NCBI RefSeq assembly: GCF_041381155.1
Contig: NC_091137.1
Span: 11,217,765-11,281,764, forward strand
DNA: 64,000 nucleotides
Reading direction: 5' to 3'
From: Argopecten irradians
Taxonomy: Eukaryota > Mollusca > Bivalvia > Pectinida > Pectinidae
The notes under the pieces are model-generated. The model made no database searches. It saw only the letters and a list, made by a program, of their open reading frames with translations, and was not told the DNA's origin. The translations under genes and the position numbers were made by a program. Positions 1-49,337 of this stretch are shown one piece after another; within the stretch, counting starts at the first letter, position 1, and the number at the start of each line of letters is the position of its first letter.

Positions 1-3000
1 TCTAACAAGGTTTGTCCAGTTCTTTGTCCAGTCTAACAAGGTTTGTCCAGTTCTTTGTCCAGTCTAACAAGGTTTGTCCAGTTCTTTGTCCAGTCTAACA
101 AGGTTTGTCCAGTTCTTTGTCCAGTCTAACAAGGTTTGTCCAGTTCTTTGTCCAGTCTAACAAGGTTTGTCCAGTCTAACAAAGTTTGTCCAGTTGTTTG
201 TCCAGTCTAACAAAGTTTGTCCAGTTCTTTGTCCAGTCTAACAAGGTTTGTCCAGTTCTTTGTCCAGTCTAACAAGGTTTGTCCAGTTCTTTGTCCAGTC
301 TAACAAGGTTTGTCCAGTTCTTTGTCCAGTCTAACAAGGTTTGTCCAGTTCTTTGTCCAGTCTAACAAGGTTTGTCTTGTGTAACAAAGTTTGTCCAGTT
401 CTTTGTCCAGTCTAACAAGGTTTGTCCCATTCTTTGTCCAGTCTAACAAGGTTTGTCCAGTCTAACAAGGTTTGTCCAGTTCTTTGTCCAGTCTAACAAG
501 GTTTGTCCAGTTCTTTGTCCAGTCTAACAAGGTTTGTCCGGTTCTTTGTCCAGTCTAACAAGGTTTGTCCGGTTCTTTGTCCAGTCTAACAAGGTTTGTC
601 CAGTTTTTTGTCCAGTCTAACAAGGTTTGTCCCATTCTTTGTCCAGTCTAACAAGGTTTTTCCAGTCTAACAAAGTTTGTCCAGTTCTTTGTCCAGTCTA
701 ACAAGGTTTGTCCAGTTCTTTGTCCAGTCTAACAAGGTTTGTCCAGTCTAACAAAATTTGTCCTTTTCTTTGTCCAGTCTAACAAGGTTTGTCCAATTCT
801 TTGTCCAGTCTAACAAATTTTGTCCAGTTCTTTTCCAGTCTAACAAGGTTTGTCCAGTCTTCTTTGTCCAGTCTAACAAGGTTTGTCCAGTTCTTTGTCC
901 AGTCTAACAAGGTTTCAGTCTTTGTCCAGTCTAACAAGGTTTGTCCAGTTCTTTGTCCAGTCTAACAAGGTTTGTCCAGTTCTTTGTCCAGTCTAACAAG
1001 GTTTGTCCAGTCTAACAAGTTTGTTCATTCTTTGTACAGTCTAACAAGGTTTTTCCAGTTCTTTGTCCAGTCTAACAAGGTTTGTCCAGTTCTTTGTCCA
1101 GTCTAACAAGGTTTGTCCAGTTCTTTGTCCAGTCTAACAAGGTTTGTCCGGTTCTTTGTCCAGTCTAACAAGGTTTGTCCAGTTCTTTGTCCAGTCTAAC
1201 AAGGTTTGTCCAGTCTAACAAGTTGTCCAGGTTTTTCAGTCCAGTCTAACAAGGTTTGTCCAGTCAGTCTAACTTTGTCCAGTCTAACAAGGTTTGTCCA
1301 GTTCTTTGTCCAGTCTAACAAGGTTTGTCCAGTTCTTTGTCCAGTCTAACAAGGTTTGTCCAGTTCTTTGTCCAGTCTAACAAGGTTTGTCCGGTTCTTT
1401 GTCCAGTCTAACAAAGTTTGTCCGGTTCTTTGTCCAGTCTAACAAGGTTTGTCCGGTTCTTTGTCCAGTCTAACAAGGTTTGTCCGGTTCTTTGTCCAGT
1501 CTAACAAGGTTTGTCCAGTTCTTTGTCCAGTCTAACAAGGTTTGTCCAGTTCTTTGTCCAGTCTAACAAGGTTTGTCCAGTTCTTTGTCCAGTCTAACAA
1601 GGTTTGTCCAGTTCTTTGTCCAGTCTAACAAGGTTTGTCCAGTCTAACAAGGTTTGTCCAGTTCTTTGTCCAGTCTAAAAAGGTTTGTCCAGTTCTTTGT
1701 CCAGTCTAACAAGGTTTGTCCAGTCTAAACAAGGTTTGTCCAGTTCTTTGTCCAGTCTAACAAGGTTTGTCCATTTGTTAACTTTGTCCAGTCTAACAAG
1801 GTTGTCCAGTCTAAAATGGTTTGTCCAGTTCTTTGTCCAGTCTAACAAGGTTTGTCCAGTTCTTTGTCCAGTCTAACAATGTTTGTCCAGTCTAACAAAG
1901 TTTGTCCAGTTCTTTGTCCAGTCTAACAAGGTTTGTCCAGTTCTTTGTCCAGTCTAACAAGGTTTGTCCAGTTCTTTTCAGTACTTTGTCCAGTCTAACA
2001 AGGTTTGTCCGGTTCTTTGTCCAGTCTAACAAGGTTTGTCCAGTTCTTTGTCCAGTCTAACAAGGTTTGTCCAGTTCTTTGTCCAGTCTAACAAGGTTTG
2101 TCCAGTTCTTTGTCCAGTCTAACAAGGTTTGTCCAGTTCTTTGTCCAGTCTAACAAGGTTTTGTCCAGTTCTTTGTCCAGTCTAACAAGGTTTGTCCAGT
2201 TCTTTGTCCAGTCTAACAAGGTTTGTCCAGTTCTTTGTCCAGTCTAACAAGGTTTGTCCAGTCTTTGTCCAGTCTAACAAGGTTTGTCCAGTTCTTTGTC
2301 CAGTCTAACAAGGTTTGTCCAGTTCTTTGTCCAGTCTAACAAGGTTTGTCCATTCTTTGTCCAGTCTAACAAGGTTTGTCCAGTTCTTTGTCCAGTCTAA
2401 CAAGGTTTGTCCAGTTCTTTGTCCAGTCTAACAAGGTTTGTCCAGTACAAGTTCTTTGTCCAGTCTAACAAGGTTTGTCCGTTCTTGTCCAGTTAACAAG
2501 GTTTGTCCAGTTCTTTGTCCAGTCTAACAAGGTTTGTCCAGTTCTTTTTGTCCAGTCTAACAAGGTTTGTCCAGTTCTTTGTCCAGTCTAACAAGGTTTT
2601 CGTGTCCAGTCTAACAAAGTTTTCCAGTTCTTTGTCCAGTCTAACAAGGTTTGTCCAGTTCTTTGTCCAGTCTAACAAGGTTTGTCCAGTTCTTTGTCCA
2701 GTCTAACAAGGTTTTGTCCATCAGTCTACAAATTTGTCCAGTTCTTTGTCCAGTTAACAAGGTTTGTCCAGTTAACAAATTTGTCCAATTCTTTGTCCAG
2801 TCTAACAAGGTTTTGTTCTTGTCCAGTCTAACAAGGTTTTTCCAGTCTTTGTCCAGTCTAACAAGGTTTGTCCAGTTCTTTGTCCAGTCTAACAAGGTTT
2901 GTCCAGTCTAACAATTTGTTTGTCCAGTTCAAGGTTTGTCCAGTCTTTTTGTCCAGCTCCAGTCTAACAAGGTTTGTCCAGTTCTTTGTCCAGTCTAACA

Positions 3001-3840
3001 AGGTTTGTCCAGTTCTTTGTCCAGTCTAACAAGGGTTCGTCCGTTCTTTGTCAGTCTAACAAGGTTTGCCAGTTCTTTGTCCAGTCTAACAAGGTTTGTC
3101 ACTTTCTTTGTCCAGTCTAACAAGGTTTGTCTTGTGTAACAAAGTTTGTCCAATTCTTTGTCCAGTCTAACAAGGTTTGTCCAGTTCTTTGTCCAGTCTA
3201 ACAAGGTTTGTCCAGTCTAACAAAGTTTGTCCCAGTTCTTTGTCCAGTCTAACAAGGTTTGTCCAGTCACCTTAACAAGTTTTGTCCAGTTCTAACAAGG
3301 TTTTCCAGTTGTCCAGTCTAACAAGGTTTGTCCAGTCTAACAAATTTGTCCTTTCTTTGTCCAGTCTAACAAGGTTTGTCCAGTCTAACAAAGTTTGTCC
3401 AGTTCTTTGTCCAGTCTAACAAGGTTTGTCCGGTTCTTTGTCCAGTCTAACAAGGTTTGTCCAGTCTTTAACCAGGTGTCCAGTTTAACAAGGTTTGTCC
3501 AGTTCTTTGTCCAGTCTTAAAAAGTTTGTCCCATTCTTTGTCCAGTCTAACAAAGTTTGTCCAGTTCTTTGTCCAGTCTAACAAGGTTTGTCCTGTTCTT
3601 TGTCCAGTCTTACAAGGTTTGTCCAGTTCTTTGTCCAGTCTAACAAGGTTTGTCCTGTTCTTTGTCCAGTCTAACAAGGTTTGTCCCATTCTTTGTCCAG
3701 TCTAACAAGGTTTGTCCAGTTCTTTGTCCAGTCTAACAAGGTTTGTCCAGTTCTTTGTCCAGTCTAACAAGGTTTGTCCAGTTCTTTGTCCAGTCTAACA
3801 AGGTTCGTCCTGTTCTTTGTCCAGTCAAAGTTTGCCCTGT
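1..3840. repeat. 31-bp minisatellite/satellite array (about 120 units)
   Basis: The window opens inside a tandem array with a consensus period of 31 bp. The unit has two parts sharing the core TTTGTCCAG: a 19-bp part (TCTAACAAGGTTTGTCCAG) and a 12-bp part (TTCTTTGTCCAG). Shortened units of the 19-bp part alone recur, for example near 165, 455 and 1000. Long stretches are nearly identical, while 2400-3500 is more diverged. The array breaks down near 3835, about 180 bp before the first visible HIBCH exon, so it lies in a HIBCH intron and runs off the left edge. Short open frames on both strands are products of the repeat, not genes. Confidence 0.95.
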
Positions 3841-4019: not shown

Positions 4020-6222
4020 ATTTCTGAATTGGAGGCAGCATTAATTGGGCTTGATAATCCTAGTCACCATGACATTACGACTGTGATAGAAGATTTCCAA
4101 AGTAAAGTAAGTTGTATGATAAAGATAGAAGATTTCCAGAGTAAGGTAGGTTGTACGATAAAGACAGAAGATTTCCAGAGTAGGTCGGTTATCGATAAAG
4201 ACAGAAGATTTCAGAGTTGGTAGGTTGTATGATGTAGACAGAAGATTTCCAGAGTAAGTAGGTTGTATGGTAGGTTGTATGATAAAAACAGAAGATTTTC
4301 AGAGTTAGGTAGGTTGTATGATATAGATAGAACATTTCCAGAGTAAGGTAGGTTGTATGTAGGTTGTATGATAAAAACAGAAGATTTTCAGATTAAGGTA
4401 GGTTGTATGATATAGATAGAACATTTCCAGAGTAAGGTCGGTTGTATGGTAGGTTGTATGATAAAGACAGAAGATTTCCAGAGTAAGATAGGTTATATGA
4501 TAAAGACAGAAGATTTCCAGAGTTAGGTAGGTTGTATGGTAGGTTGTATGATAAAAACAGAAGATTTCCAGTGACTAACTCAATTTGCCCTCTTCTACTT
4601 CAAAATTATACATTCCGTTTAGCTCTTCTGTTTCTAGAAAATCCTTCATCTATACACTGGAAGATCTCCCCAAATGATTTCTGTTTTAGAAGATCACAAA
4701 TCGAGTTGTTGTCTACTTAAAACTGGATAGTTCACTCATGTTTTACTATGAAGAAGAGATCTTGAATTAAATTACCATATTAAAGAAAGCTTACACAAAT
4801 AAACTGTCTTACTTGCTACTCACAAATAAACAGGTTATTATTGAAATTTCACCTTTTAAACTGATTAAATGCAGTGACCAATGCATATGATGTTACTATT
4901 AATGCAGATTTCCGGGAGCTTTCTTCAGTTTTACACTATTATATCTTTATTAATTTGTAGGACATGATAAAAATGTACACAACCTAGGATAAGTTAGTTT
5001 ATTTGCAAAATTAAAACAAAGAAAGTATTAAATGAAAAATATTAAATAAATTTTAATCAAATAAGGGAGATAATTCAGGTATTTGATATAAATGTTGTAA
5101 GTAATAATGTCACTGTGTACATGTATGTGTTTGAACAGCCATTAAGGTTTGAACATTTAATAAAAAAAATGATCAAGCCTGATTAATAATGTGTTGTAGA
5201 GTACTGATGTTCCAGATGAAGACTTTATTCTAAAGCCTGACATGGACAAGATTAATAGATTATTTAGTGCTAAAACATTGGAAGGAATATTTCAAGATTT
5301 AAAAAATGATGGTTCAGATTGGGCAACAAAACAGCTACAAACACTACAAAAAATGGTAAGTTTTTATTGTCCAGATAACAAAAGACCTGCACTTAGTGTC
5401 ATCAGCAAAGTGACTAAGTATTAAGCAAATTTATAAAATACAGTATGTCTGTCAGTTTCAAGGTTTTGTTTCATTTGCATAATAAAATTTTGATATTTTA
5501 TGTTGACATGTTAAATAAAATTAAGCTAATAACTTACAAGAAACAAACACTTATCAAGTTTTTACACAAAATGATGTGTCCCTTTTAGTCGCCAACCTCT
5601 ATGAAGATCACACTGCGGCAGATTTTAGAGGGGAGAAATCTGTCGCTAGGAGACTGTTTACAGATGGAATACAGACTCAGTCAGAGATGTATAGATGACA
5701 AAGATTTCTACGAAGGTGTTAGAGCAGGTAAATCACAAAAAGTATTAAACTGGACCTGTCAAAATTCACCATAACTCACAAAATCTAGACACCAGTGACA
5801 TATTTAGAAATTCATTGACATATATAATAACAATAGTATTATATAGTTCCCTAGTTATGTAAATCGCAAAATGCAATCTCCGTGAATATGTCCAATATAG
5901 GAAACCATGAAGTATTGACCCCACAAATTTAAAGTGCTTTACACATGTGATGTACAGTACTCAACTATGTAAAGTAAATTTTAATTTTACAAGCGTCCTA
6001 CTGATATTGAACTATTATGGTAGTAAATATCTATCATGTATATTTTTTATTGATCATTAACAATTTATATGTCAAAATGGTAATGTTGATTTTATCTCCA
6101 CAGTGCTTGTAGATAAAGATCAGAGCCCTAAATGGGACCCCGCTACCATTGAAGGAGTTACTAGTGATAAGGTTGACTGGTACTTTTCTGTACTGCCGGC
6201 TGAGAGGGAGCTGCAGTTATGA
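4020..6222 (+). CDS. HIBCH: 3-hydroxyisobutyryl-CoA hydrolase, mitochondrial, C-terminal 166 aa (4 exons, 5' part outside window)
   Basis: HIBCH hydrolyses 3-hydroxyisobutyryl-CoA in mitochondrial valine breakdown; it belongs to the enoyl-CoA hydratase/isomerase superfamily. Coding exons are 4020-4106, 5200-5355, 5589-5727 and 6104-6222. All junctions are GT-AG, and the joined frame is 167 codons including the TGA stop. Recognition rests on the family's C-terminal segment: [16 protein letters not shown], then [35 protein letters not shown] and [14 protein letters not shown], which line up collinearly with the end of vertebrate HIBCH as I recall it. The N-terminal catalytic crotonase core is upstream, beyond the satellite. 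The exon ending at 4106 is the seed of a minisatellite that copies its 5' splice site. The frame stays open past 4106 to 4221, so use of a downstream donor would add residues before the frame is lost. Confidence 0.93.
4085..4572 (+). repeat. 39-bp minisatellite made of the HIBCH exon end plus 5' splice site (about 11 units)
   Basis: The first unit straddles the exon-intron junction at 4106/4107: exon end ATAGAAGATTTCCAAAGTAAA, then GTAAGTTGTATGATAAAG. Later units repeat the same order (AGAAGATTTCCAGAG, then TAAGGTAGGTTGTATGATAAAGA), with periods of about 37-39 bp or 50-52 bp. The longer ones carry an extra GGTAGGTTGTAT. Most units keep a GTAGGT or GTAAGT donor-like hexamer in the same place. 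The array ends at about 4572 inside the intron. Confidence 0.9.
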
Positions 6223-14798: not shown

Positions 14799-17700
14799 AT
14801 GTCTACGTCCGAAGGAAATCCTGAATCCATTATCAAAGTTCATCCTCACAGTGGGCATGCAAACCGTGCTTGGGAACACATGAAGAAAAGCCAAAAAGTG
14901 ATAAAGAAAAGTCTTGTTGAAGATCCTGAGTCACCAATTCCCGAGAATCACCTTCGATTTGTGTGTATTTCTGATACACATAGTCGAATTGAGAATGGTG
15001 CATACAAGATACCACCTGGAGATGTTCTCCTACATGGAGGAGATTTCTCTATGATCGGACTACCAAAGGATATACACAAGTTCAATGAATACCTTGGTAA
15101 GTTGCCCTTCTAAATCACTTCTTTATATCTAAAACAAATTTGGTAAGGCGAAGTGATGAACCGTCAATTGAGACTTACATTTTTTCTATAACTATCAAAT
15201 TCTTGAAAAAGAATATCTAAATTGTGTAAACATTGAAGGAGCGTGATTCACATTTGCAGTTCATATGAATTTCTATAACATCATAATCAGTATCAATGGA
15301 AACAATGATTTGTCTTTCCTCCCAGGAACTTTGCCCCACAAGGTGAAGGTTGTTATAGCAGGGAACCATGACCTGACCTTTGATGAAGAAATGGTGAAGA
15401 ATCATCGCCAAAATTTGAGTATGATGTTTGGTGTAAGAGAACAATTTTATGAGGCTTACATGGCTGAGAAGAATTTGACTGATGTCAAAGAACTGATGAC
15501 AAATTGTGTTTATCTTGAGGATGCCTCTGTAGATATTCATGGAATCAAAATTTATGGATCACCATGGTAAGTTTAATGTTGTTATACAGGGTATCAAAAT
15601 GTTGATTGAATTATTTTTATATTACCTCTTCGGGCACTTGTTAACCTGGCATATTACAAATGCCCTCTGTAGGCTTATATATATCCGTGTGTTTGTATAC
15701 CCACTTTGAAATTATTTACAATTTCCCTTGTTTTGTTTTACAAAGGTTTGTGTGTAATGTCTACTTGTAGGCAGCCCGAGTTTGGAGGATGGGGATTCAA
15801 TTTGCCACGAGGTCAGGCACTTTTAGACAAATGGAACATGATCCCAGACGATACAGAGATTCTGATCACCCACGGGCCTCCCATTGGTGAGTCTAATGAT
15901 ACAGACTGTGAGGATGCTCCTGGACAACCATTTACAATAGTAGTATATAAATAATGGTCCAAACTGTACCTTATTCTGACTCATTTCACACAATACAGGA
16001 GACTGTATTTACTTATAAGTTTGGTGGTATTCCATTTCTTTAATTTAAACCTTAAACCATGTCTATTTCCTGATATTTAAGGATTAACTTGCATAGATTT
16101 TTTATGTTATGGAGATATAACACAACAAGAGGCCCATGGATCTTAACGGTCATCTGACTCATGGCACAAAAACAACAAAGTCACAGTATAAAGTAGTGGT
16201 TAATAATTAATATAAGCAATACAAGGAACTCCTTTGTTGAAAATGTAAGTTTCTGAAATAGGTAAAGGTCATGTATTGAACAAACTTGGAAGCCCTTCAT
16301 CCATATATAGTTGTAACCCATTCAAAGATTAAGGAGGAATAAGATTTTAAAACCAAATTTCAGCAAAGCTCCAATTTTGGACCCCCGCCGTTCCATCCCC
16401 ATGTTTGCATGTTGTTTGCCATCCCTTGAAACCCCTATAGATCAATTTTCGTTGAGATCGGAGACCAAAACCTGAAAACATAAAGTGGGCCAGTGGCCAT
16501 CTTGGATTACCAAAATCTTTATATAAAATATGATTGTCCTTCCCTAATGATGTTTTACGCCAAATATGGAAAAAAGCCACTCAAGGGTTAAGTAGGAGTA
16601 GGATTTTAAAGATAAATTTCATTGAAGTTCCCCCTTCTGAGCCCCACCCCTCTGTCCCCAGGGGTCAGACTGAGAAATACTCAAGGGATCTTTCTCAAAT
16701 TTCATGTGCAGGTTCCCCGAGGGGTCTAGTGCATTTTCTGACTTATCGGTCAGCAAGATGATCGACGACAGGTAGCCATCTTGGATTTTGATAATTGAAG
16801 TTTGTTACTGCTACATATCTCAGAAAGTACTGAAAGGATCTTTCTCAAGTTTCATATATAGCACGTAGTAAAATTTTGAAAAGCAGAGAAAAGATCCCTC
16901 TTTCTGTTGTCAGACATAGATCATTCTTTGGTGGGCGCCAAGATCCCTCTGGGATCTCTTGTTAAGCTTCAATTAAGAAGATTTGCCCTTTTGGGGCCCC
17001 GCCCCTCAGCCCCTAGCCCCTAGGGGTCGGACCTATCTCATTTATATAAAAAATGATTGTCTTTCCATAATGATGTTTCATACCAAATATGGATGAAATC
17101 CATCCAAGGATGAAGGAGGAGTAGGATTTTAAAGCTAAAATTACGAACATTTGCCCTTTTGGTGCCCCGCCCCTCTGCCCCTAGGGGTCAGACCTATCTC
17201 ATTTATATAAAATATGATTGTCCTTCCCCAATGATGTTTCACAGCAAATATGGATGAAATCCATCCAAGGATGAAGGAGGAGTAAGATTTTTTAGCTTAA
17301 TTAAGAAAAATTTTCCCTTTTGGGGCCCCACCCCTCAGGGGTTGGACCTAATATGGATGAAATCCATCCAAGGATGAAGGAGGAGTAAATTTTTAGCTTA
17401 AATTAAGAAAAATTTTCCCTTTTGGGGCCCCACCCCTCAGGGGTTGGACCTATCTCATTTATATAAAATATGATTGTCCTTCCCCAATGATGTTTCACAC
17501 CAACTATGGATGAAATCAATCTAAGGATGAAGGAGGAGTAGGATTTTAAAGCTTAAAATAAGAAAATTTGCCCTTTTGGGGCCCCACCCCTCAGGGGTCG
17601 GACCATGCTCATTTATATAAAATATTATTGTCCTTCATCAATGATGTTTCACACCAAATATGGATGAAATCAATCGAAGGATGAAGGAGTAGTAGGATTT

Positions 17701-20700
17701 TAAAGCTTAAAATAAGAAAATTTGCCCTTTTTGGGGCCCCATCCCTCAGCCCCTAGGGGTCGGACCAGGCTCATTTATATATGATTGTCCTTCCCCAATG
17801 ATGTTTCACACGAAATATGGATGTAATCTCTCAAGGATTAAGGAGGATTAGGCTTTTGTATAAATAGTCTTACGCACGACGCACGGAGCACCGCGCATGG
17901 CGCACGACGACGGACAAAACATGATGACAATAGGTCATCCTGACCTTCGGTCTGAGTGTACTCTAAATAAACCGCCAGCGAAGCGGTTTATGATGAGAGT
18001 ACACTCAGATTTTTGTGTTATATCTCCATAACATAAAAAAATATTCATTTTACTCCTTATAATTCAAACTAAAAATAATCTCTTTAATACTCAGAATTCA
18101 CTTTGGGACTCTTTTGTCTATGAAATCATTACGCCGTCATCTCAGCCAATCAAAAGCAATGTCACAAACGGTGACGTTATTTTTTCCTTATGGACTGATA
18201 AAGTAATTTTTTAAGCCAAAAAAATGAAAATGCTCGTAACAAGCAAAATTGAATTATACAACGATAATATATACTGTTTGATTAAAGGAGCAGGGATTAA
18301 TGATTGTTATCACAACAGCCATACAATTTGTGCAGTTGTCTCCCCTGTTTACAGGTCATGGTGATCACACGTTTGATGGGACGAGAGCCGGCTGTGTGGA
18401 GCTCCTTTCTACAATACAACAAAGAGTTCGGCCTAAATACCATATATTTGGTCACATTCACGAAGGTAGGGACACAGTACATAAGATGATAGCGGTTAAT
18501 CAACAATTATTTTTTAAAGGTCTTTTTCATTTTTGCCTAAAACAATTAATCCAACTATGATAAAAGAATCCATTGCAGAAAATATATGGTTCTTTTTAAA
18601 ATTTCACGCAAGCTTAGATGGCAAATGGTGAAAGATGTAAGAAAACAAAAAGCCACATTTTGGACATCACATTTTGTTTGACTGTTTTTGTATGCTTGAT
18701 AATCTGTTTCCAGAGCAGGAGGGATGGAGGTAAAATGATATATTAGGGAGAATGCCTGCTATCTAATGCCATTGACTTTTGTCAATAAAATTGTTTGAAA
18801 TTGAAGGATGTTTGCATGTAAATCTTTTTACACAGAAATCAAGCCTTTCTCTAGTCAGAATTTTTTTTTTGTATGAAGATGTTTTCAAAACAACTGTGAC
18901 TTCACAGATGATCACAAATAGTCAATAAAACCCCTTTACTTTATTAAATATGGCGGAAGCTTTGAATGACATTGCAAACGTAAGTGAACTATCTATACTT
19001 ATTTGAAGGTTATGGAGTAGTAAAATATCTATACTTATTTGAAGGTTATGGAGTAGTAAACTATATATATACTTATTTGAAGGTTATGGAGTAGTGAACT
19101 ATCTTTACTTATTTGAAGGTTATGGAGTAGTGAACTATCTAATTTGAAGGTTATGGAGTAGTGAAATATTTTACTTATTTGAAGGTTATGGATTAGTAAA
19201 CTATCTTTACTTATTTGAAGGTTATGGAGTAGTGAACTATCTAAACTTATTTGAAGGTTATGGAGTAGTGAACTATCTTTACTTATTTGAAGGTTATGGA
19301 GTAGTGAACTGTCTAATTTGAAGGTTATGGAGTAGTGAAATATTTTACTTATTTGAAGGTTATGGAGTAGTAAAATATCTATACTTATTTGAAGGTTATT
19401 TGAAGGTTATGGAGTAGTGAACTATCTTTACTTATTTGAAGGTTATGGAGTAGTGAACTATCTTTACTTATTTGAAGGTTATGGAGTAGTGAACTATCTA
19501 TACTTATTTGAAGGTTATGGAGTAGTGAACTATATTTACTTAATTGAAGGTTATGGAGTAGTGAACTATCTTTACTTATTTGAAGGTTATGGAGTAGTGA
19601 ACTATCTATACTTATTTGAAGGTTATGGAGTAGTGAACTATCTTTACTTATTTGAAGGTTATGGAGTAGTGAACTATCTTTACTTATTTGAAGGTTATGG
19701 AGTAGTGAACTATCTTTACTTATTTGAAGGTTATGGAGTAGTGAACTATCTTTACTTATTTGAAGGTTATGGAGTAGTGAACTATCTTTACTTATTTGAA
19801 GGTTATGGAGTAGTGAACTATATTTACTTATTTGAAGGTTATGGAGTAGTGAACTATCTTTACTTATTTGAAGGTTATGGAGTAGTGAACTATCTTTACT
19901 TATTTGAAGGTTATGGAGTAGTGAACTATCTTTACTTATTTGAAGGTTATGGAGTAGTGAACTATCTTTACTTATTTGAAGGTTATGGAGTAGTGAACTA
20001 TCTTTACTTATTTGAAGGTTATGGAGGTAGTGAACTATCTTTACTTATTTGAAGGTGGTTATTGAGTAGTGAACTATCTATACTTATTTGAAGGTTATGG
20101 AGTAGTGAACTATCTATACTTATTTGAAGGTTATGGAGTAGTGAACTATCTTTACTTATTTGAAGGTTATGGAGTAGTGAACTATCTTTACTTATTTGAA
20201 GGTTATGGAGTAGTGAACTATCTTTACTTATTTGAAGGTTATGGAGTAGTGAACTATCTATACTTATTTGAAGGTTATGGAGTAGTGAACTATCTTTACT
20301 TATTTGAAGGTTATGGAGTAGTGAACTATCTTTACTTATTTGAAGGTTATGGAGTAGTGAACTATCTATACTTATTTGAAGGTTATGGAGTAGTGAACTA
20401 TCTTTACTTATTTGAAGGTTATGGAGTAGTGAACTATCTATACTTATTTGAAGGTTATGGAGTAGTGAACTATCTTTACTTATTTGAAGGTTATGGAGTA
20501 GTGAACTATCTTTACTTATTTGAAGGTTATGGAGTAGTGAACTATCTTTACTTATTTGAAGGTTATGGAGTTGTGAACTATCTTTACTTATTTTAAGGTT
20601 ATGGAGTCACCACTGACGGAGTAACAACCTACATCAATGCATCCACATGTACACTACGATACAAAACTGAGAATGCCCCTGTGATATTTGACTTTCCTAT

Positions 20701-20830
20701 CCCCGAGGGACATACGAAGGAGGAGGCGCTTAATCTCTGTGTACAACCAGCTTTACCTGTAAAAAAGTCATCGAACGTACCATCAAACAAGGAGGAGGAT
20801 ATTGAAATTGAATTTACTGAAGACGCTTGA
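14799..20830 (+). CDS. MPPED2-like: metallophosphoesterase domain-containing protein (MPPED1/2 type), 332 aa, 5 exons
   Basis: Class III metallophosphodiesterase family (UPF0046); vertebrate relatives hydrolyse 2',3'-cyclic nucleotides and related phosphodiesters with two bound metals. Exons are 14799-15096, 15326-15566, 15771-15886, 18355-18465 and 20598-20830. All junctions are GT-AG and the joined frame is 333 codons including TGA. Metal-site motifs appear in order: DTH (residues 59-61), GDVLLHGGD (74-82), GNHD (112-115), THGPP (213-217) and GHIH (251-254). Other hallmarks are GWGFNLPRGQALLDKWN and GCVELLSTIQQRV. The start ATG at 14799 follows an acceptor-like site. The tail after TYINASTCTLRY is about 50 residues and acidic (EEDIEIEF), longer than in vertebrate MPPED2 as I recall. 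His252 of GHxH is present, whereas I recall mammalian MPPED2 having glycine there. Intron 3 carries a pearl-like element; intron 4 ends in a minisatellite built from the acceptor of exon 5. Confidence 0.93.
16123..17950 (+). mobile_element. pearl/Helentron-like element with about 160-bp tandem core
   Basis: Starts with CAAGAGGCCCATGGATC and contains about seven imperfect core units of roughly 150-160 bp, some shortened. The core carries GGGGCCCCACCCCTCAGGGG, ATGATTGTCCTTCC and ATGGATGAAATCCATCCAAG. The core is followed by a CACGACGCACGG-type simple stretch (17874-17925), then GGTCATCCTGACCTTCGGTC, which can fold with a TTC loop. Core repeats, then a microsatellite, then a terminal hairpin is the architecture of bivalve 'pearl' elements, now placed among non-autonomous Helitron-like elements. 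It lies in MPPED intron 3 and has no coding capacity. Confidence 0.65.
17951..18009. repeat. 59-bp two-stage palindrome
   Basis: The outer arms TCTGAGTGTACTCT and AGAGTACACTCAGA are perfect inverses (14 bp). Inner arms ATAAACCGC (17967-17975) and GCGGTTTAT (17983-17991) pair again around a short loop. It directly abuts the pearl-like element. Confidence 0.85.
18975..20606 (+). repeat. 36-bp minisatellite built from the MPPED exon 5 splice acceptor (about 45 units)
   Basis: The unit is GTTATGGAGTAGTGAACTAT followed by CTTTACTTATTTGAAG. The last unit runs directly into exon 5: CTTTACTTATTTTAAG, then GTTATGGAGTCACC, where G598 is the first exon base. Each unit therefore ends with an AG acceptor and begins with the first ten bases of the exon. 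The 5' third (18975-19400) is irregular and the rest nearly perfect. The 36-nt period equals 12 codons, so frames stay open (NYLYLFEGYGVV repeated) from 19417 to 20052 and from 20069 to 20596. The 20596 stop is created by the TTTTAAG variant of the final unit. Confidence 0.93.
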
Positions 20831-26243: not shown

Positions 26244-29200
26244 TAACGTCACCGTACCCCATTTGGTACACGACCCCTTTTGGTACAAAATTAGGGTTTT
26301 CCCCTCTAAAATCCTAGTTACTGTGTTTTGTTATTTTATACTATTGTGATATGAAAATACAAGTATAAAATGACAATTTAAACTCAAATTTGACTTCGAT
26401 CGTCTAGATTATATTCCTATACGCCTACATCGAAATGGGCGAAATGGCCGTAAATGTTAGCAGTGGGTGCCGTTGAGCCATTCGACGGCTATTTTATGCT
26501 ACATTGTTATCCGTTTTCATCTAAAGTAAACGCATTAAATAAATCTCTATATCACTAAAATTCTTCGGATATCATTTTCATAACGATACCTCTTTTATTA
26601 GCGCAGATACGCCACTTTTCTTAGTGTAACACCGCAATTCAAAAATCCCGCTTCGCCATTTTTGTTTTTACTACCAATGCGCATGCCTCAACGTTGCTGA
26701 CTAAAACGATCTACCAGGCCAGGTGCTCAGTTGGGGGTTTAATGAGATCCGGATTTATAGCAAGGATATGTATTATGTGTTGGTGTCAATTATTACTTTC
26801 TGTCTATTAATCATTAAGATTGTAAGATAACCTACATGCACACCGTATGAATTTTTGTCTTAAATAAAATGAGATAATCAAACAACAGACCATTGACATT
26901 TCCCCAAGACAATGACATACAAATGTACTCAGTACAGATACATGTAACTTAATGTAAGCAATATCTCAGTAGATTTTTTTAAAGTGGTTCCTCAAAATTA
27001 TAAATGACTTAATCCAGATTTGCAGGCAAATACTATTTCATTGTTAATAGAGTTCATTACACAAAAACAGCAATAAACTGGATCAGTGTTGAGAATCACC
27101 ATGGGGATTTAATGTCACATGCAGTCATGGAAAAAATATAACATTGAACTTACATGTACATCCTAGATCTTTCATTATATAGAAGACATTGCTCACAAAT
27201 ATTTCATTTATTCTCTCTCTCTCCATCTTTTCTATTTACATTAAAAAGGTAGTTGTATTCTTGATTTAAAGTTGCAATGTTATAAAATATAATATATAGA
27301 TATAAAAATTCTTAAACAGGTATGACAAATTCTGCATTTCTGAAAACTGTGTTTTAGGAATCAATATTGATATACCAACCAAAATATGGTCAGTGCATAG
27401 CATCAAAACTAATATCAATGTGAGGCCATGTATACACACACATGTATAGATAATTCATATTCCAATTGCAAGTGATCCTGAATTGAACAAACGTGGATCA
27501 TTTATTTTCATCTGTAACTTGTAAGAAGATATTGTAAGAATTGTAATTGTGTGTTCAGTCAGTATTGTTGTGTTTAAATGAAACTGTACTACCTCCTTAG
27601 GCCCTATTGCATCCATTTTTATCCACTAATGAACTTAATATGCAATTATACAGTGTACCTGCATGTATTACCTAGTACCTACAAGTATAAATGTACATGT
27701 ACCAGGTATATATTGCCTGTACCTATACTATTACCATGCATACTCTATATTGTGATTCCCAGTATTATAACTTTAAAGAAAGAACAAATTGATATATTAA
27801 TGAGTGCTGTAATGTATTTACTGAAAATTAACAAGCATAATTAGGGCAATTCCAGTTATAAACTAGATCTTTTTTCTTAAAAATCATACTTAATTTCACA
27901 GTAAAACCATTTTCTGAGACATTCACGTCTTCATATAGGTTTGCATATGGCAATATGTTCCAAAATTATTGTGCTAAATGCTGAATGCTGCAGTTTTCCA
28001 ATGAAGAAAAGAAATTTTGTAACAGATGATAAACTCAGGAAATAAAAAAAATATTATGGTTTCCATGCATTTAATACTGTCTGGTTTTTACATATAGAAA
28101 AGGTATGTGTAGCCTCAAGAAATTCTTCTTATATTATGGGGGTTTCCATACCTGCTACATAAACAAAATAGAAAATTAGACATGAAAAATTATACCAGGT
28201 ACAGAGCTATTGATTATAGGGTATCTTTGTTCTATAGGGAACAAAATGCACCATGTACAGGTAAAAATACAATATTATTGCATTGACATGACCATTATGA
28301 GGACTTTTCTTAACCTCTTATTTGTGGTCTTCCAGTAAAAACGGACAGGATATATTTATATATATCATTCCCTGTATAATTTTACCATTTTACAGATAAA
28401 CTCCCAGGTAAAAATGATTTACATGTAGATAATTAATTACATATAATAAGTTAACAGAAGGAAGGATATCTAGTCATGTGGTGATTTATATACCCTGTAA
28501 TTGAATAGAATGGTATTTGTTTTACCATAAAAATATCTATATATGCTATAAAATAATTATACATGAATCACATGTATTTGAATCCTCTTAATAAATTAAT
28601 ATGGGAAAATTTAAATATGTAATGTTTTGTAATGCAAACCTTTTAAAATAAAAAATGGAAGATTATAACAAAATTGAGTTGTAAAAAATTAAAACAGAAG
28701 AGTGTATAAATTCATTTTGTATTGTAATTTATAAAATTATTTCTAAATATCATACATACATAATACATAAAAACATGTTTAATTACCCAATATACCTACA
28801 TGTATCTATCTATGATTTTGTTTAATTTTTCATATAAATAACATTTATTAACAAGTTCTCAACCTCATGATACAGTTGCATAACAAGATTTTCAGCAAGT
28901 ATGTACTATTATGCATTAGCTGTGTATTGAGGGCTAAATGAAGTCTTATCAAATTAAATACATGCACATTATAAGGTTTATATACATTTTACATACAAAC
29001 AGTTCTGAACAAGCTCTTTTTTCACAATATGTAATGTACACTACATGGTACAATTAATAAAATCTTATATAAAACCAGATACCATATCTTATAATTATGT
29101 TCTATTTGCTTTATTTCTAATGCTTCATTTGGAGAATGGATACTGGATAGATCTATAGTATAGGCCTAGTTATAATATGGACTGTTTAGGCATGTTATTT

Positions 29201-30836: not shown

Positions 30837-33800
30837 TAACGTCACCGTACCCCATTTGGTACACGACCCCTTTTGGTACAAAATTAGGGTTTTCCCCTCT
30901 AAAATCCTAGTTACTGTGTTTTGTTATTTATACTATTGTGATATGAAAATACAAGTATAAAATGACAATTTAAGCTCAAATTTGACTTCGATCGTCTAGA
31001 TTATATTCCTATACGCCTACATCGAAATGGGCGAAATGGCCGTAAATGTTAGCAGTGGGTGCCGTTGAGCCATTCGACGGCTACTTTATGCTACATTGTT
31101 ATCCGTTTTCATCTAAAGTAAACGCATTAAATAAATCTCTATATCACTAAAATTCTTCGGATATCATTTTCATAACGATACCTCTTTTATTAGCGCAGAT
31201 ACGCCACTTTTCTTAGTGTAACACCGCAATTCAAAAATCCCGCTTCGCCATTTTTGTTTTTACTACCAATGCGCATGCCTCAACGTTGCTGACTAAAACG
31301 ATCTACCAGGCCAGGTGCTCAGTTGGGGGTTTAATGAGATCCGGATTTATAGCAAGGATATGTATTATGTGTTGGTGTCAATTATTACTTTCTGTCTATT
31401 AATCATTAAGATTGTAAGATAACCTACATGCACACCGTATGAATTTTTGTCTTAAATAAAATGAGATAATCAAACAACAGACCATTGACATTTCCCCAAG
31501 ACAATGACATACAAATGTACTCAGTACAGATACATGTAACTTAATGTAAGCAGTATCTCAGAAGATTTTTTTAAAGTGGTTCCTCAAAATTATAAAATGA
31601 CTTAATCCAGATTTGCAGGCAAATACTATTTCATTGTTAATAGAGTTCATTACACAAAAACAGCAATAAACTGGATCAGTGTTGAAAATCACCATGGGGA
31701 TTTAATGTCACATGCAGTCATGGAAAAAATATAACATTGAACTTACATGTACATCCTAGATCTTTCATTATATAGAAGACATTGCTCACAAATATTTCAT
31801 TTATTCTCTCTCTCCATCTTTTCTATTTACATTAAAAAGGTAGTTGTATTCTTGATTTAAAGTTGCAATGTTATAAAATATAATATATAGATATAAAAAT
31901 TCTTAAACAGGTATGACAAATTCTGCATTTCTGAAAACTGTGTTTAGGAATCAATATTGATATACCAACCAAAATATGGTCAGTGCATAGCATCAAAACT
32001 AATATCAATGTGAGGCCATGTATACACACACATGTATAGATAATTCATATTCCAATTGCAAGTGATCCTGAATTGAACAAACGTGGATCATTTATTTTCA
32101 TCTGTAACTTGTAAGAAGATATTGTAAGAATTGTAATTGTGTGTTCAGTATTGTTGTGTTTAAATGAACCTGTAATCTACCTCCTTAGGCCCTATTGCAT
32201 CCCATTTTTTATGCCACTAATGAACTTAATATGCAATTATAGCAGTGTACCCTGCATGTATTGCCTAGTAACCTACAAGTATAAAAATGTACATGTACCA
32301 GTAATATATTTTGCCTGTACCTATACTGTTACCATGCATACTCTATATTGTGATTCCCAGTATTATAACTTTAAAAGAAAGAACAAATTGATATATTAAT
32401 GAGTGCTGTAAATGTATTTACTGGAAAATTAACAAGCATAAATTAGGGCAATTCCAGTATATAAACTAGATCTTTTTTCTAAAAAATCATACTTAATTTC
32501 ACAGTAAAAACCATTTTTCTGAACAATTCACGTCTTTCAATAGGTTTGCATATGGCAATATGTTCCAAAATTATTGTGCTAAATGCTGAATGCTGCAGTT
32601 TTTCCAATGAAGAAAAGAAATTTTGTAACAGATGATAAACTCAGGAAATAAAAAAAAAATATTATGGTTTCCATGCATTTAATACTGTCTGGTTTTTACA
32701 TATAGAAAAGGTATGTGTAGCCTCAAGAAATTCTTCTTATATTATGGGGGTTTCCATACCTGCAACATAAACAAAATAGAAAATTAGACATGAAAAAATT
32801 ATACCAGGTACAGAGCTATTGATTATAGGGTATCTTTGTTCTATAGGGAACAAAATGCACCATGTACAGGTAAAAATACAATATTATTGCATTGACATGA
32901 CCATTATGAGGACTTTTCTTAACCTCTTATTTGTGGTCTTCCAGTAAAAATGGACAGGATATATTTATATATATCATTCCCTGTATAATTTTACCATTTT
33001 ACAGATAAACTCCCAGGTAAAAATGATTTACATGTAGATAATTAATTACATATAATAAGTTAACAGAAGGAAGGATATCTAGTCATTGGTGATTTATATA
33101 CCCTGTAATTGAATAGAATGGTATTTGTTTTACCATAAAAATATCTATATATGCTATAAAATAATTTATACATGAATCACATGTATTTGAATCCTCTTAA
33201 TAAATTAATATGGGAAAATTTAAATATGTAATGTTTTGTAATGCAAACCTTTTAAAATAAAAAATGGAAGATTATAACAAAATTGAGTTGTAAAAAATTA
33301 AAACAGAAGAGTGTATAAATTCATTTTGTATTGTAATTTATAAAATTATTTCTAAATATCATACATACATAATACATAAAAACATTTTTAATTACCCAAT
33401 ATACCTACATGTATCTATCTATGATTTTGTTTAATTTTTCATATAAATAACATTTATTAACAAGTTCTCAACCTCATGATACAGTTGCATAACAAGATTT
33501 TCAGCAAGTATGTACTATTATGCATTAGCTGTGTATTGAGGGCTAAATGAAGTCTTATCAAATTAAATACATGCACATTATAAGGTTATATACATTTTAC
33601 ATACAAACAGTTCTGAACAAGCTCTTTTTTCACAATATGTAATGTACACTACATGGTACAATTAATAAAATCTTATAAAACCAGATACCATATCTTATAA
33701 TTATGTTCTATTTGCTTTATTTCTAATGCTTCATTTGGAGAATGGATACTGGATAGATCTATAGTATAGGCCTAGTTATAATATGGACTGTTTAGGCATG

Positions 33801-43335: not shown

Positions 43336-46023
43336 ATGTGTGTGGTGGGATTGTTCTCGTGGATCATCTTACTATCCCTTGTTCATACAGCTAGGGGAGT
43401 GAAAGAGAGATGTCCTGTTCCATGTTCATGCTCATACAAAGGAGAGGCTGCCAAAGTGTTAGATTGTTCAAATCTTAACTGGGAAAGGCTCCCGTTAAAT
43501 TTCATCTTCCCCCCATCAGTGGTAAATATATCGCTTGCATACAACAAATTTAAAGTGCTTCTTAATGGAACCTTTACAAATTTGACGAATCTCCAGTCGT
43601 TGAATATATCACACAACAGATTGTCCCGTATGGACTACTCATGCTTCGAAGGACTGGAATCGTTAACGACCCTTGATATTAGTTATAACGAACTCAAGAT
43701 GACAACAAATGTGTACACTCCAGGGATATTTCGTCATCTTAAGAATTTAACATTTCTAGATATCCATGCTAACATCAGGCAGTCCACAACGGATCAAAAA
43801 TACCCAGATGAGGCCCTTTCGGAACTAGAGTTTCTACAAGAACTAATGATGGACGGATTGACCGATGTGACCTTCGGACAAGGGTTCCGAAAATTAACGC
43901 ATCTGACTGTACTGGATATGTCGGTACGGGACGATGAAAGCTCGTGTGTCCTGATTAACGTTCATAATACAACATTCAGCAGCCTGAGCTATTCTACACT
44001 TTCTTTGTTGAAGTTGGTGCAATGTGATATATACCGTATAGCACCCGGGGCGTTCTCAATGCTTACATTCTTAACAGAACTAGACCTGTCTAAAAACGAC
44101 CGCCTTACATTTAAAGGGATGACAAATGCGAGTGTTGGATTCAATTTAACGAACATTCAAGTTGTGCATCTGAATGGTATTAACAGACATAGTGATCCAT
44201 GGACTCTAAAACAAGATGACTTTGTTCATTTCCACGACACGAACCTTAAAACGTTAACACTGGATTCCAATAGGATCACAAATATAGAAGTTGACGTTAT
44301 AGATGTTCTACCCATAACTCTTCAGTTACTGACAATCCGTGAGAACTATTTGACCGATGCACACTTCCTTGCTGAATTAGTTCGCTTGGAAAACCTTTTA
44401 GTTTTTGACATCAGCTATCAGTTGCATTACACCATGAGTCTGGGTATTATACCCAAAAATGAAATTACGTCTCTTGCAGCAAGCCAAGAGAGTCCAGAAG
44501 ACCCAGAAGCTGTAGAGGGAGACCGGGGGAACACACAGACATTTGAAACCAAACCAATTGAAATGAAAAATACAATGAATTATTCCATTATGCACCATGA
44601 CAAAAGAACCGAAAATGATGTGATTAAATTGCCTTTCAGACTAAGAAAGGCCATTGGAAACAACCTTAAGATTGATCCTTTGTCCGCGCCACCCGTTACT
44701 TTTGATGCCAACAATTCTCTGGAATATCTCGATCTGTCGTCCAACGGAGTGCATGCCTGGTACGGCAAGTGGTCAGGTCTTCACTTCTTGAGATTTTTAA
44801 ATGTTTCTTTTAACGGCATATTCCGCGTAGCTCCGGACACGTTCGGTGATATGGCTAGTTTGAATACCCTTTTTCTGAATGGAAACAGACTGGGCGTGAG
44901 TATAATGCAAGATAAACAGTTCCTTACGTTTTCTAACCAAACAAAGCTGATCTATCTGAATTTGAGTGACAATGCTTTCACTGATCTCCCTGAATTCATT
45001 TTTGTCAAACAAACAAATCTAAAAATATTAGATCTCCGGTATAATTATTTGACGGCAATTAATTTCCGAATGAAGTCTTTAGGCAGAATAAAGGAGATAA
45101 ACCTGTCAAATAATACAATACGTGAGCTCACTCGTATCAATATGGAAGAGATTGACTATTTAAGCAAGAAGTCAAACTTTACTATCGACTTGACCGGAAA
45201 CCCTCTGCTGTGTACGTGTGATCAGTTAGAACAACTCCGATGGATGGCTGTCAGCAAACCTGTCTTCCGGAACCTAAAACAGTATACTTGTAAGGCCAAT
45301 AATGGCAGCTTCGCCAGACTTCAGTGGTTAGACGACTTGGTGGGAGGGATGGAAATAGACTGTATAGCCGAGGAGGTAATCCTAATTTGTGCAGTTGTGT
45401 TTTGTGGACTGTGTTTTATACTTGCGTTAGCCGCTCTCGCTTATTACAAAAAATCCCGCCTTATGTACCATTTCAGTGTAGGCAGAAAACACTGCAACCC
45501 ACTGGGAACGAAAACACCAAAAGGAACAAACATTCAAGTTGGTGAAGAAAATGAAGAACAACTGAAATATACGGTTTATCTCTCCATGGCATCATCCGAG
45601 GAAGGAAACAAATTCGCAGAACAATTAGAGGAATATCTTACAGATAAAGGTATATCTGTGTGCATACCCGAGCTTAGTGGTCAAAGTGGTATGAATGAAA
45701 CAATAGCCATAGTTCAGACTATGAACAAGTGTGCATGCATTCTAGCTCTTATTGACAACGAATACATGGTGTCTTTTCCGAGGCTTTTCGAATTCGAAGT
45801 TGCTGTCACAGAAGGGATTCAGAACCGGTTCAGTAACCTGATAGTAGTTTTATTAAAAGACTTGGACAATAAACATCTTCAAATGAACGATTTCGTCGCC
45901 ATGTTCTGTCGAGAGAACTATTTCTTTGACGGTCGAAAATCGCAGGGTCGATTGTTTAGTGAATTAGAAAATGAAATCATTAGATACAAAGAGTTTGTGG
46001 ACCGGAGGAAACAATTACCATAA
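43336..46023 (+). CDS. TLR-like: Toll-like receptor, 895 aa, single coding exon
   Basis: Type I innate immune receptor that would signal through its cytoplasmic TIR domain. ATG 43336 was chosen because a splice acceptor (TTGTTTCAG, ending 43322) lies 13 bp upstream and because residues 1-21 form a signal peptide (MCVVGLFSWIILLSLVHTARG). Then come an LRRNT (cysteines 26, 30 and 32), about 12 leucine-rich repeats, an unusual polar insert at residues about 377-455, about 6 more LRRs, an LRRCT (C626, C628, C652, C676), a transmembrane helix (681-704) and a TIR domain (about 743-880). Total length is normal for a TLR. The TIR is divergent: box 1 reads YTVYLSMASSEE instead of YDAFVSYS, the RDxxPG box 2 is not recognisable, and box 3 reads ENYFFDG. 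The frame is intact and intronless after the start, as in many TLRs. Its ligand and adaptor cannot be told from sequence. Confidence 0.92.
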   Translation: MCVVGLFSWIILLSLVHTARGVKERCPVPCSCSYKGEAAKVLDCSNLNWERLPLNFIFPPSVVNISLAYNKFKVLLNGTFTNLTNLQSLNISHNRLSRMDYSCFEGLESLTTLDISYNELKMTTNVYTPGIFRHLKNLTFLDIHANIRQSTTDQKYPDEALSELEFLQELMMDGLTDVTFGQGFRKLTHLTVLDMSVRDDESSCVLINVHNTTFSSLSYSTLSLLKLVQCDIYRIAPGAFSMLTFLTELDLSKNDRLTFKGMTNASVGFNLTNIQVVHLNGINRHSDPWTLKQDDFVHFHDTNLKTLTLDSNRITNIEVDVIDVLPITLQLLTIRENYLTDAHFLAELVRLENLLVFDISYQLHYTMSLGIIPKNEITSLAASQESPEDPEAVEGDRGNTQTFETKPIEMKNTMNYSIMHHDKRTENDVIKLPFRLRKAIGNNLKIDPLSAPPVTFDANNSLEYLDLSSNGVHAWYGKWSGLHFLRFLNVSFNGIFRVAPDTFGDMASLNTLFLNGNRLGVSIMQDKQFLTFSNQTKLIYLNLSDNAFTDLPEFIFVKQTNLKILDLRYNYLTAINFRMKSLGRIKEINLSNNTIRELTRINMEEIDYLSKKSNFTIDLTGNPLLCTCDQLEQLRWMAVSKPVFRNLKQYTCKANNGSFARLQWLDDLVGGMEIDCIAEEVILICAVVFCGLCFILALAALAYYKKSRLMYHFSVGRKHCNPLGTKTPKGTNIQVGEENEEQLKYTVYLSMASSEEGNKFAEQLEEYLTDKGISVCIPELSGQSGMNETIAIVQTMNKCACILALIDNEYMVSFPRLFEFEVAVTEGIQNRFSNLIVVLLKDLDNKHLQMNDFVAMFCRENYFFDGRKSQGRLFSELENEIIRYKEFVDRRKQLP

Positions 46024-46975: not shown

Positions 46976-47868
46976 TTTTCAGTACGATACTCTCCCTCCC
47001 TCTTCCTTCAGGGAGAGTTCAGTACGATACTCTCCCTCCTTTTTCCTTCAGGGAGAGTTCAGTACGATACTCTCCCTCCCTCTTCCTTCAGGGAGAGTTC
47101 AGTACGATACTCTCCCTCCCTCTTCCTTCAGGGAGAGTTCAGTACGATACTCTCCCTCCCTCTTCCTTCAGGGAGAGTTCAGTACGATACTCTCCCTCCC
47201 TCTTCCTTCAGTAGGAGAGTTCAGTACGATACTCTCCCTCTTCCTTCAAGGAGAGTTCAGTACGACGCTCTCCCTCCCTCTTCCTTCAGGGGGGTTCAGT
47301 ACGATACTCTCCCTCCCTCTTCCTTCAGTACGATACTTTTCCCTCCCTCTTCCTTTAGGGAGAGTTCAGTACGATGCTCTCTGTTCTCCTCTCTCTCTCT
47401 CCTCTTCCTTCAAGGGGGGGGGGGGGTCAGTACGATACTCTCCCTCCCTCTTCCTTTAGGGAGAGTTCAGTACGATACTTTCCCTCCCTCTTCCTTCAGG
47501 GGGTTCAGTACGATACTTTCTCTCCCTCTTCCTTCAGGGGGGTTTCATAACGATACTCTCCCTCCCTCTTCCTTTAGGGGGGTTCAGCACGATACTCTCC
47601 CTCCCTCTTCCTTCAGAGGGGTTCAGTACGATACTTTCTCTCCCTCTTCCTTCAGGGGGGTTTCATAACGATACTCTCCCTTCCTCTTCCTTCAAGGGGG
47701 GGGGGGGTTCAGTACGATACTCTCCCTCTCTCTTCCTTCATGGTTAGTTCAGTACTATACTCTCCCTCCCTATTCCTTCAGGGAGAGTTCAGTACGATGC
47801 TCTCCCTCCCTCTTCCTTCAGGGAGAGTTCAGTACGATACTCTCCCTCCCTCTTCCTTCAGTGTGGTT
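46976..47868 (+). repeat. 40-bp minisatellite within copy 1 (about 22 units)
   Basis: The unit is TTCAGTACGATACTCTCCCT followed by CCCTCTTCCTTCAGGGAGAG, with many variants (GGGGGG runs, TTTCATAACG). One strand is strongly pyrimidine-rich. Confidence 0.9.
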
Positions 47869-47989
47869 TCAGATACCATGCCATTTATCAAAGATACCAT
47901 GCCATTTATCAGGGATACCATGCCATTTATCAGGGATACCATTTTCTCACATAGCTAGCCATGTAAGATAGAGTTGTCCCATGAAAGAC

Positions 47990-48021
47990 AGCTATGTAAG
48001 ATAAATCTATCTTACATAGCT
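47990..48021. repeat. perfect 32-bp hairpin followed by CRE-like TGACGTCA, copy 1
   Basis: AGCTATGTAAGATA and TATCTTACATAGCT are perfect 14-bp inverses around a 4-nt loop. TGACGTCA follows at 48023-48030, and a second one about 20 bp further on. Confidence 0.85.
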
Positions 48022-48334
48022 GTGACGTCACAATTGCCGAACAATCAAATGACGTCATATCAGCCAAAGTTGGCGTCATTTTTCATCTATTTCGATTGAT
48101 TTGACGGATTTATTTACCATTTCATTTGTTTAATTTGCATTTCAAACCATTCTTATCTATCAGGTGATATAAGTCTGCGCTGGAAATTGTCCTGTCTATC
48201 TTCTGGCTTTTGATGATTACATAAAAGTTTCTCCAAGTTTCTCAGCTGTCTCGACTTCCAGAATCAAACTTGAAGATGTATTTGTGTTGATTTAACAGCA
48301 ATCCGTACCAAGGTGCAACTTCGCTAGCCAAGGT

Positions 48335-49215
48335 TTTCAGTACGATACTCTCCCTCCCTCTTCCTTCAGGGAGAGTTCAGTACGATACTCTCCCTCCTTC
48401 TCCTTCAGGGAGAGTTCAGTACGATACTCTCCCTCCCTCTTCCTTCAGGGAGAGTTCAGTACGATACTCTCCCTCCCTTTTCCTTCAGGGAGAGTTCAGT
48501 ACGATACTCTCCCTCCCTCTTCCTTCAGGGAGAGTTCAGTACGATACTCTCCCTCCCTCTTCCTTCAAGGAGAGTTCAGTACGATACTCTCCCTCTTCCT
48601 TCAAGGAGAGTTCAGTACGACGCTCTCCCTCCCTCTTCCTTCAGGGGGGTTCAGTACGATACTCTCCCTCCCTCTTCCTTCAGTACGATACTTTCCCTCC
48701 CTCTTCCTTTAGGGAGAGTTCAGTACGATGCTCTCTGCTCTCTCTCCCTCTTCCTTCAAGGGGGGGGGGGGTCAGTACGATACTCTCCCTCCCTCTTCCT
48801 TTAGGGAGAGTTCAGTACGATACTTTCCCTCCCTCTTCCTTCAGGGGGTGCAGTACGATACTTTCTCTCCCTCTTCCTTCAGGGGGGTTTCATAACGATA
48901 CTCTCCCTCCCTCTTCCTTTAGGGGGGTTCAGCACGATACTCTCCCTCCCTCTTCCTTCAGAGGGGTTCAGTACGATACTTTCTCTCCCTCTTCCTTCAG
49001 GGGGGTTTCATAACGATACTCTCCCTTCTTCTTCCTTCAGGGGGGGGGGGGGTTCAGTACGATACTCTCCCTCTCTCTCTTCCTTCATGGACAGTTCAGT
49101 ACTATACTCTCCCTCCCCATTCCTTCAGGGAGAGTTCAGTACGATGCTCTCTCTCCCTCTTCCTTCAGGGAGAGTTCAGTACGATACTCTCCCTCCCTCT
49201 TCCTTCAGTGTGGTT
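48335..49215 (+). repeat. 40-bp minisatellite within copy 2
   Basis: Same unit as 46976-47868 with the same series of variant units in the same order, including the G-run unit. This shows that the whole array was duplicated together and did not expand independently. Confidence 0.9.
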
Positions 49216-49337
49216 TCAGATACCATGCCATTTATCAAAGATACCATGCCATTTATCAGGGATACCATGCCATTTATCAGGGATACCATTTTTCTCACAT
49301 AGCTAGCCATGTAAGATAGAGTTGTCCCATGAAAGAC

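Follow-up and report, generated by a model that had tools for sequence, protein, structure and literature searches.

Minisatellites that duplicate intron-exon boundaries have been described in amphioxus under the name of 'mirages', in the genes Adh3, TnC, the globins BflGb6 and BflGb9, and PGBD5 (PMC3087553, PMC3902484). In the excerpts of these reports, the copies located at the cluster boundaries escape homogenisation (PMC3087553, PMC3902484), and RT-PCR suggests regular splicing (PMC3087553). In human, intron 18 of ABCA7 carries a donor-bearing VNTR of 25 bp, with ~12 to 427 units, and the available part of its report states that splicing and dosage are altered with VNTR length and that there is an effect on disease risk (PMC5954066). 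The human IFI6 (6-16) minisatellite has, according to the title of its report, multiple splice donor sites (NAR 1995;23:1854); it is of the donor type, unlike the acceptor array of MPPED described here. In human, new introns can arise from repeats located at exon-intron boundaries (PMC2812944, in excerpt), and a potato intron was born from a boundary duplication (PMC4974935, in excerpt). An intron minisatellite of abalone is not described as boundary-spanning in the part of its report that was available (PMC6905558), and our literature search found no boundary minisatellite in a bivalve, with no molluscan case among the matches listed (titles and abstract starts).

We analyzed a stretch of 64,000 nucleotides of Argopecten irradians DNA (the window, whose coordinates are used throughout), which contains new instances of this known type of element: an acceptor array in MPPED, the subject of an original prediction made from the DNA letters, and two newly found arrays, i.e., a second one on a HIBCH donor and a probable third one. 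As in amphioxus, where the excerpts describe both an acceptor type (BflGb6, 3′ intron end plus 5′ exon) and a donor type (BflGb9), the MPPED and HIBCH arrays represent the two types and carry AG or GT signals in many units. The MPPED array has 46 junction copies of 36 bp, versus 6 and 3 units in BflGb6, each of 150-160 bp, and units of 10-72 bp in Adh3, and it differs from the amphioxus mirages, as excerpted, in having an in-frame stop codon that overlaps its authentic acceptor. The ABCA7 VNTR, in the same partial text, resembles the HIBCH and MPPED arrays as a tandem array of splice sites: it begins with the authentic donor, and every unit is a potential donor; unlike the MPPED array, it is of the donor type, and its C-rich unit starts at the GT without exon sequence.

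Genes were located by a Pfam scan of the plus strand, except at 14.7-20.8 kb, where open reading frames and the joined protein were used, and of the minus strand from 35.4 kb onward. The MPPED features are as follows (a slash marks the splice junction):

14799-15096, 15326-15566 and 15771-15886, plus strand: earlier MPPED coding exons, placed by homology, with the start codon placed by eye
18355..18465, plus strand: MPPED exon preceding the array, ending CACGAAG/GTAGGG, phase 1
18983..20607, plus strand: 36-bp minisatellite, 45 copies, by TRF and junction scan
20598..20830, plus strand: last MPPED coding exon (GYGVTTDGVTTYINAS..), with the authentic acceptor AAG/GTTATGG and the stop TGA at 20828-20830

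The joined exons matched the MPPED2 chain 3rl4, which we take to be rat MPPED2, with an E value of 4.6e-94 (phmmer), in an alignment that spans the junction at GHIHEGYG, and the protein carries the Pfam domain Metallophos (E 5e-13); by homology, the gene bearing the acceptor array is an MPPED metallophosphoesterase. The sequence ATGGCGGAAGCTTTGAATGACATTGCAAAC (18951-18990), with GTAAGT after it, lies at the 5′ edge of the array and resembles a start exon whose donor is strong (score 8.94); it overlaps the first repeat unit, and no exon downstream of it was identified. A nested first exon (ATGGCGG..AAC/GTAAGT) joined to the last MPPED exon was rejected, because by eye the frame is wrong.

TRF reported 45.0 copies with a period of 36 and 93% matches (18983-20607). 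The unit is AGTGAACTATCTTTACTTATTTGAAG/GTTATGGAGT, i.e., the final 26 nt of the intron (..TTTGAAG) followed by the 10 nt with which the last exon begins. The junction scan located 46 sites, TTGAAG/G or TTTTAAG/G, which correspond to 45 decoys and the authentic acceptor with first exon base 20598. TRF and the scan thus confirmed the predicted ~45 copies of a 36-bp unit composed of an acceptor and an exon start. Neighbouring junctions are 11 to 39 nt apart, and the spacings other than 36 are 11, 31, 35, 37, 38 and 39 nt, so that the scan cannot have missed a unit whose AAG is broken; AAG/G is thus present in 45/45 decoys, AAG/G being itself the scan criterion and the spacings excluding skipped units. 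As many as 40 of the 45 decoys share 21-23 of 28 positions with the authentic junction, and a 23-nt core of the unit gave 43 matches in the window (at most 3 mismatches), all of them within the array (chance mean 0.00). In a scan of viral_contigs, the exact unit pattern had no match. For the comparison of columns, 38 units were used (the first unit and the 37 that start 36 nt after their predecessor), and 23 of them are the exact consensus. The 10 exonic nucleotides encode the GYG that stands beside GHIHE and is common to MPPED2 (3rl4); this conservation identifies the exon as the source and the array as the derivative. The array therefore originated from the intron-exon junction.

Among these 46 near-identical acceptors, only the exon-proximal copy reads TTTTAAG; its T at -4 is private (1/46 junctions), as predicted for the final unit versus TTTGAAG elsewhere, and its T at -26 is likewise unique among the 38 compared units. 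In this array, then, the boundary copy appears to be excluded from homogenisation. On one simple reading, the private T at -4 was kept because this copy, being fused to unique exon sequence, escaped homogenisation, as reported at the cluster boundaries of an amphioxus globin mirage (PMC3087553).

The gene end upstream of MPPED belongs to HIBCH (3bpt, E 7.3e-48; Pfam ECH_2), and it carries the same arrangement on the donor side:

4020..4106, plus strand: HIBCH exon of 29 protein letters, ending GAAGATTTCCAAAGTAAA/GTAAGT, placed by homology and phase
4088..4571, plus strand: second boundary array, with 11 units (37-51 nt, basic unit 39) and a partial one, composed of the exon end GAAGATTTCCAAAGTAAA and the donor GTAAGTTGTATG..
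1..3826, plus strand: probable third boundary array, with a 31-bp unit, TTTGTCCAGTCTAACAAG/GTTTGTCCAGTTC, composed of an exon end (FVQSNK) and a donor

By homology and phase, the authentic HIBCH donor at 4107 is the first, exon-proximal copy, which comprises 18 nt of exon and 21 nt of intron. Compared with the authentic copy, the array consensus has 2 changed positions in its exonic part, both synonymous (EDFQSK is encoded in either case), and copy 1 shows three differences that were found in no other copy (read by eye). In both the MPPED acceptor array and the HIBCH donor array, the tandem unit spans the exon-intron boundary of a real gene. When 13 HIBCH decoy donors were tested, 12 ran into a stop, and the one at 4146 stayed open (13 additional residues, in frame).

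The 3.8-kb array at 1-3826 has a unit, TTTGTCCAGTCTAACAAG/GTTTGT, that reads FVQSNK before its GT. This peptide aligns, in phase, with the FVDSEK of 3bpt located directly ahead of the exon at 4020. The match was first spotted by eye and then tested: its score is 19, whereas the unit's three remaining GTs score -10 to -13, and a value of 19 was reached by 0/6,696 GTs elsewhere (both strands) and by 0/100,000 mononucleotide shuffles. The array is very probably a boundary array on the preceding HIBCH donor. Its authentic copy lies to the left of the window, and hence it remains a probable case.

We regard it as likely that the MPPED array is a junction minisatellite of the 'mirage' type, mainly a tolerated passenger, with splicing to the exon-proximal copy. 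A 36-bp segment over the intron-exon boundary would have been duplicated in tandem, and slippage or unequal exchange would have expanded it to 46 junction copies. The interior copies would then have been homogenised by turnover, and the copy fused to the exon would have been spared and kept its own base. The exon-proximal copy, i.e., the last in an acceptor array and the first in a donor array, would be chosen by exon definition, because, in MPPED, it is the only copy that is followed by the real exon body, its enhancers and the poly(A) site; in both arrays where the authentic site is visible, it is by homology the exon-proximal copy. The array would be tolerated and near-neutral, and may cost some mis-splicing.

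The main alternative, which we consider unlikely, is that of the original prediction, i.e., a tunable decoy-acceptor array in which the number of units would determine how much pre-mRNA goes to truncating acceptors, and hence the level of MPPED. Its premises were analyzed by splicing the exon 18355..18465 in silico to each acceptor in turn, which revealed two further features:

20094..20597, plus strand: last in-frame block, decoy acceptors 32-45 (14/45), by the frame test
20594..20596, plus strand: in-frame TAA that overlaps the authentic acceptor and closes the frames of acceptors 32-45

The predicted in-frame TAA was thus found, at 20594. Furthermore, 45/45 decoys gave a truncated product, and the full enzyme was obtained from the authentic acceptor alone (predicted frames), in line with the predicted truncation from the last-block acceptors; truncation by every decoy would be expected of a tunable array. 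The predicted decoy-spliced protein is truncated beyond GHIHEGYG. However, the TAA ends just 14 of the 45 decoy frames, which speaks against a tuned design: 31/45 stop further upstream within the array, those of acceptors 13-30 at TGA 20050, that of acceptor 31 at TGA 20063, and those of acceptors 1-12 earlier. The irregular spacings and the point changes break these frames before the terminal TAA, so that the TAA is genuine, yet one stop among several. The claim that the junction phase is kept from unit to unit thus holds within blocks (acceptors 32-45 are in frame to the TAA) but not array-wide, and the argument that 36 nt equals 12 codons, although arithmetically correct, is weak by itself, a multiple of 3 being expected about 1 in 3 times by chance, by our estimate. 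With the stop in the last exon, exon-junction-dependent decay of the truncated MPPED transcript is not expected.

The strength of the sites was then scored with a small matrix built on introns of the window itself (15 further acceptors and 15 further donors, from MPPED, HIBCH and VPS16). With these 15 acceptors, the authentic MPPED acceptor scored 5.64 and the modal decoy 5.72, 26/45 decoys scored at least as high as the authentic site, and 43/45 scored above 2. The longer T-run ascribed to the authentic acceptor amounted to one extra base and did not raise its score. All acceptors of the array are AAG, whereas those of the matrix are CAG in 10 cases and TAG in 5. On the HIBCH donor side, the 15-donor matrix gave 10.9 for the decoys with AAG/GTAGGT and 8.38 for the authentic site, which is thus outscored by several decoys, the commonest intact one included. 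Hence, with this small matrix, the authentic site is not stronger than its decoys in the MPPED acceptor array, and the order is reversed at the HIBCH donor. Decoy scores as high as that of the authentic acceptor are compatible with a tunable array, and together with the higher HIBCH decoy donor they make substantial mis-splicing possible. As the authentic acceptor is no stronger, something beyond the site itself would have to favour it, if it is used. The same yTnAy branch-point candidates (-48, -44, -12 and -8) were observed upstream of the last two decoys and of the authentic copy, and the AG-free stretch ahead of the authentic AG is 25 nt long, versus 22 nt in 39/46 junctions, a difference too small to interpret.

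The variability of the decoy signal, i.e., the AAG plus the exonic part, was compared with that of the intronic part. In the 38 units, 5/13 signal columns and 8/23 intron columns were variable (Fisher P 1). Unit 12, which is rearranged, is solely responsible for four of the five variable exonic columns and contributes to the fifth; in the 36 decoys without unit 12, the values were 1/13 and 6/23 (P 0.38), and when the exon part was taken from 43 decoys they were 2/13 and 6/23 (P 0.68). By the four counts made, the P values were 1, 0.48, 0.38 and 0.68, none of them significant, in a test of little power, because recent turnover has left few variants. The low exonic variation without unit 12 would fit selection on the decoys, and there may be some conservation of their signals. 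In addition, the RNA of the last units and the exon start folded no better than shuffled sequences (z +0.66; 145/200 shuffles were at least as stable), so that no RNA structure hiding the decoys was seen. In human ABCA7, VNTR length changes exon skipping and retention of one unit has been seen, according to the available part of the report (PMC5954066), which lends the tunable array some plausibility; since that VNTR alters splicing, the MPPED array may likewise carry a cost or have an effect on dosage. Against this, the amphioxus mirages are reported, in the excerpts, without disturbance of splicing (PMC3087553, PMC3902484). Site strength and folding in the window gave no evidence for a tuned device, the TAA concerns 14/45 frames, and HIBCH shows the same arrangement on its donor side with a lower-scoring authentic site; the notion of a tunable decoy-acceptor array is thus not supported.

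It is very unlikely that the array serves as a nursery for intron or exon gain, with a copy under recruitment as a new splice site or mini-exon. Each MPPED unit contains AAG/GT, recruitment of mirage copies has been proposed for the amphioxus globins (PMC3087553), and the new intron of potato RdRp arose when the 3′ end of an intron was duplicated together with the start of the exon (PMC4974935), as far as the excerpts go. However, AAG/GTTATG is a poor donor in the array (2.29, a score that 20% of the GTs of the window reach), and every decoy frame stops before the exon, so that a last exon starting at such a unit would not preserve the protein. In the accounts of intron gain by tandem duplication (potato RdRp, the Rogers model, ATP2A1), the duplication created a used intron; in MPPED the copies are numerous, and nothing indicates that a new intron is in use.

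An assembly artefact, i.e., a wrong copy number or unit order or a collapsed or expanded misassembly, is highly improbable: minisatellites of 1.6-3.8 kb are difficult to assemble, but the copies can be told apart by their variants and show a recurring multi-unit pattern (spacings 36, 31 and 35 at units 3-6 and 8-11), another boundary array and probably a third are present in the same window, and the boundary origin would stand even with a wrong copy number.

How often such arrangements arise by chance was assessed with the 32 junctions that homology places in three genes (HIBCH 7, MPPED 8 and VPS16 17; the VPS16 exon ends were hand-placed from homology pieces and GT/AG). Local copies matching at least 21 of 28 positions were found at 2/32 junctions, the MPPED acceptor (40 copies) and the HIBCH donor (7); in other words, 30 of the 31 junctions other than the MPPED acceptor have no such copy within 4 kb, the HIBCH donor being the exception. 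Single matches are not rare, since 13/400 random genic positions outside arrays also had a match of at least 21/28 within 4 kb. Of six genic arrays, two have an edge at most 25 nt inside an exon, for which random placement gives P 0.022 (a post hoc test on small numbers). Taken one at a time, the two arrays have chances of 0.030 and 0.034, which become 0.018 and 0.066 when placements are limited to an exon overlap of at most 25 nt. The six arrays counted do not include the one truncated at the border of the window or that at 52289-53215, where the gene limits are unclear; VPS16 contributes three arrays and no hit. That the MPPED array is an unrelated minisatellite whose edge resembles an exon start by accident is scarcely credible: TRF arrays cover 23% of the window, so that arrays near exons are expected, and random positions also yield matches, but the last unit runs unbroken into the exon with 10 coding nucleotides, the 40 matches are in register, the second and the probable third array likewise begin in exon codons, and the placement of the array edges has the low P value given above.

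Other features of the window were also recorded. VPS16 lies on the minus strand at ~62400-53600, in many small exons (the one near 53.7 kb by eye), and its intron arrays with 157-171-bp units (59395-60954 and 54170-55181) touch 0/17 mapped splice sites. At 46978-49289 there are two related block copies, each with a 40-bp array (CTCTCCCTCCCTCTTCCTTCAG) followed by a 21-bp array; by eye, the 40-bp unit CTCTCCCTCCCTCTTCCTTCAG resembles a strong splice acceptor, and Pfam found no gene at these arrays on either strand. On the plus strand, ~43500-45900 encodes leucine-rich repeats and then a TIR domain, of the Toll-like receptor type (Pfam), and two identical open frames of 61 amino acids (CNTAIQKSRFAIFVF..) at 26625-26810 and 31217-31402 form an apparent dispersed repeat. 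Two weak matches on repeat sequence, one with Pfam HV_Gp350_C-term (23.4 bits, cut-off 26.4) and one with PDB 5z79 (E 0.0021), were set aside.

A broader proposal, that in this genome minisatellites preferentially arise or persist at splice boundaries, donors as well as acceptors, and that their copy number shifts the balance of functional and truncated transcripts, so that they act as fast-mutating heritable dials on many genes, appears to us quite unlikely. The 46 acceptors of the MPPED array offer a natural experiment on the choice made by the spliceosome among the first site transcribed, the strongest site and the site beside the real exon. With two, and very probably three, boundary arrays in two genes per 64 kb, mirages may be common in some genome other than those in which they were described, and such arrays would supply both a fast-changing competition between splice sites and errors in gene annotation.
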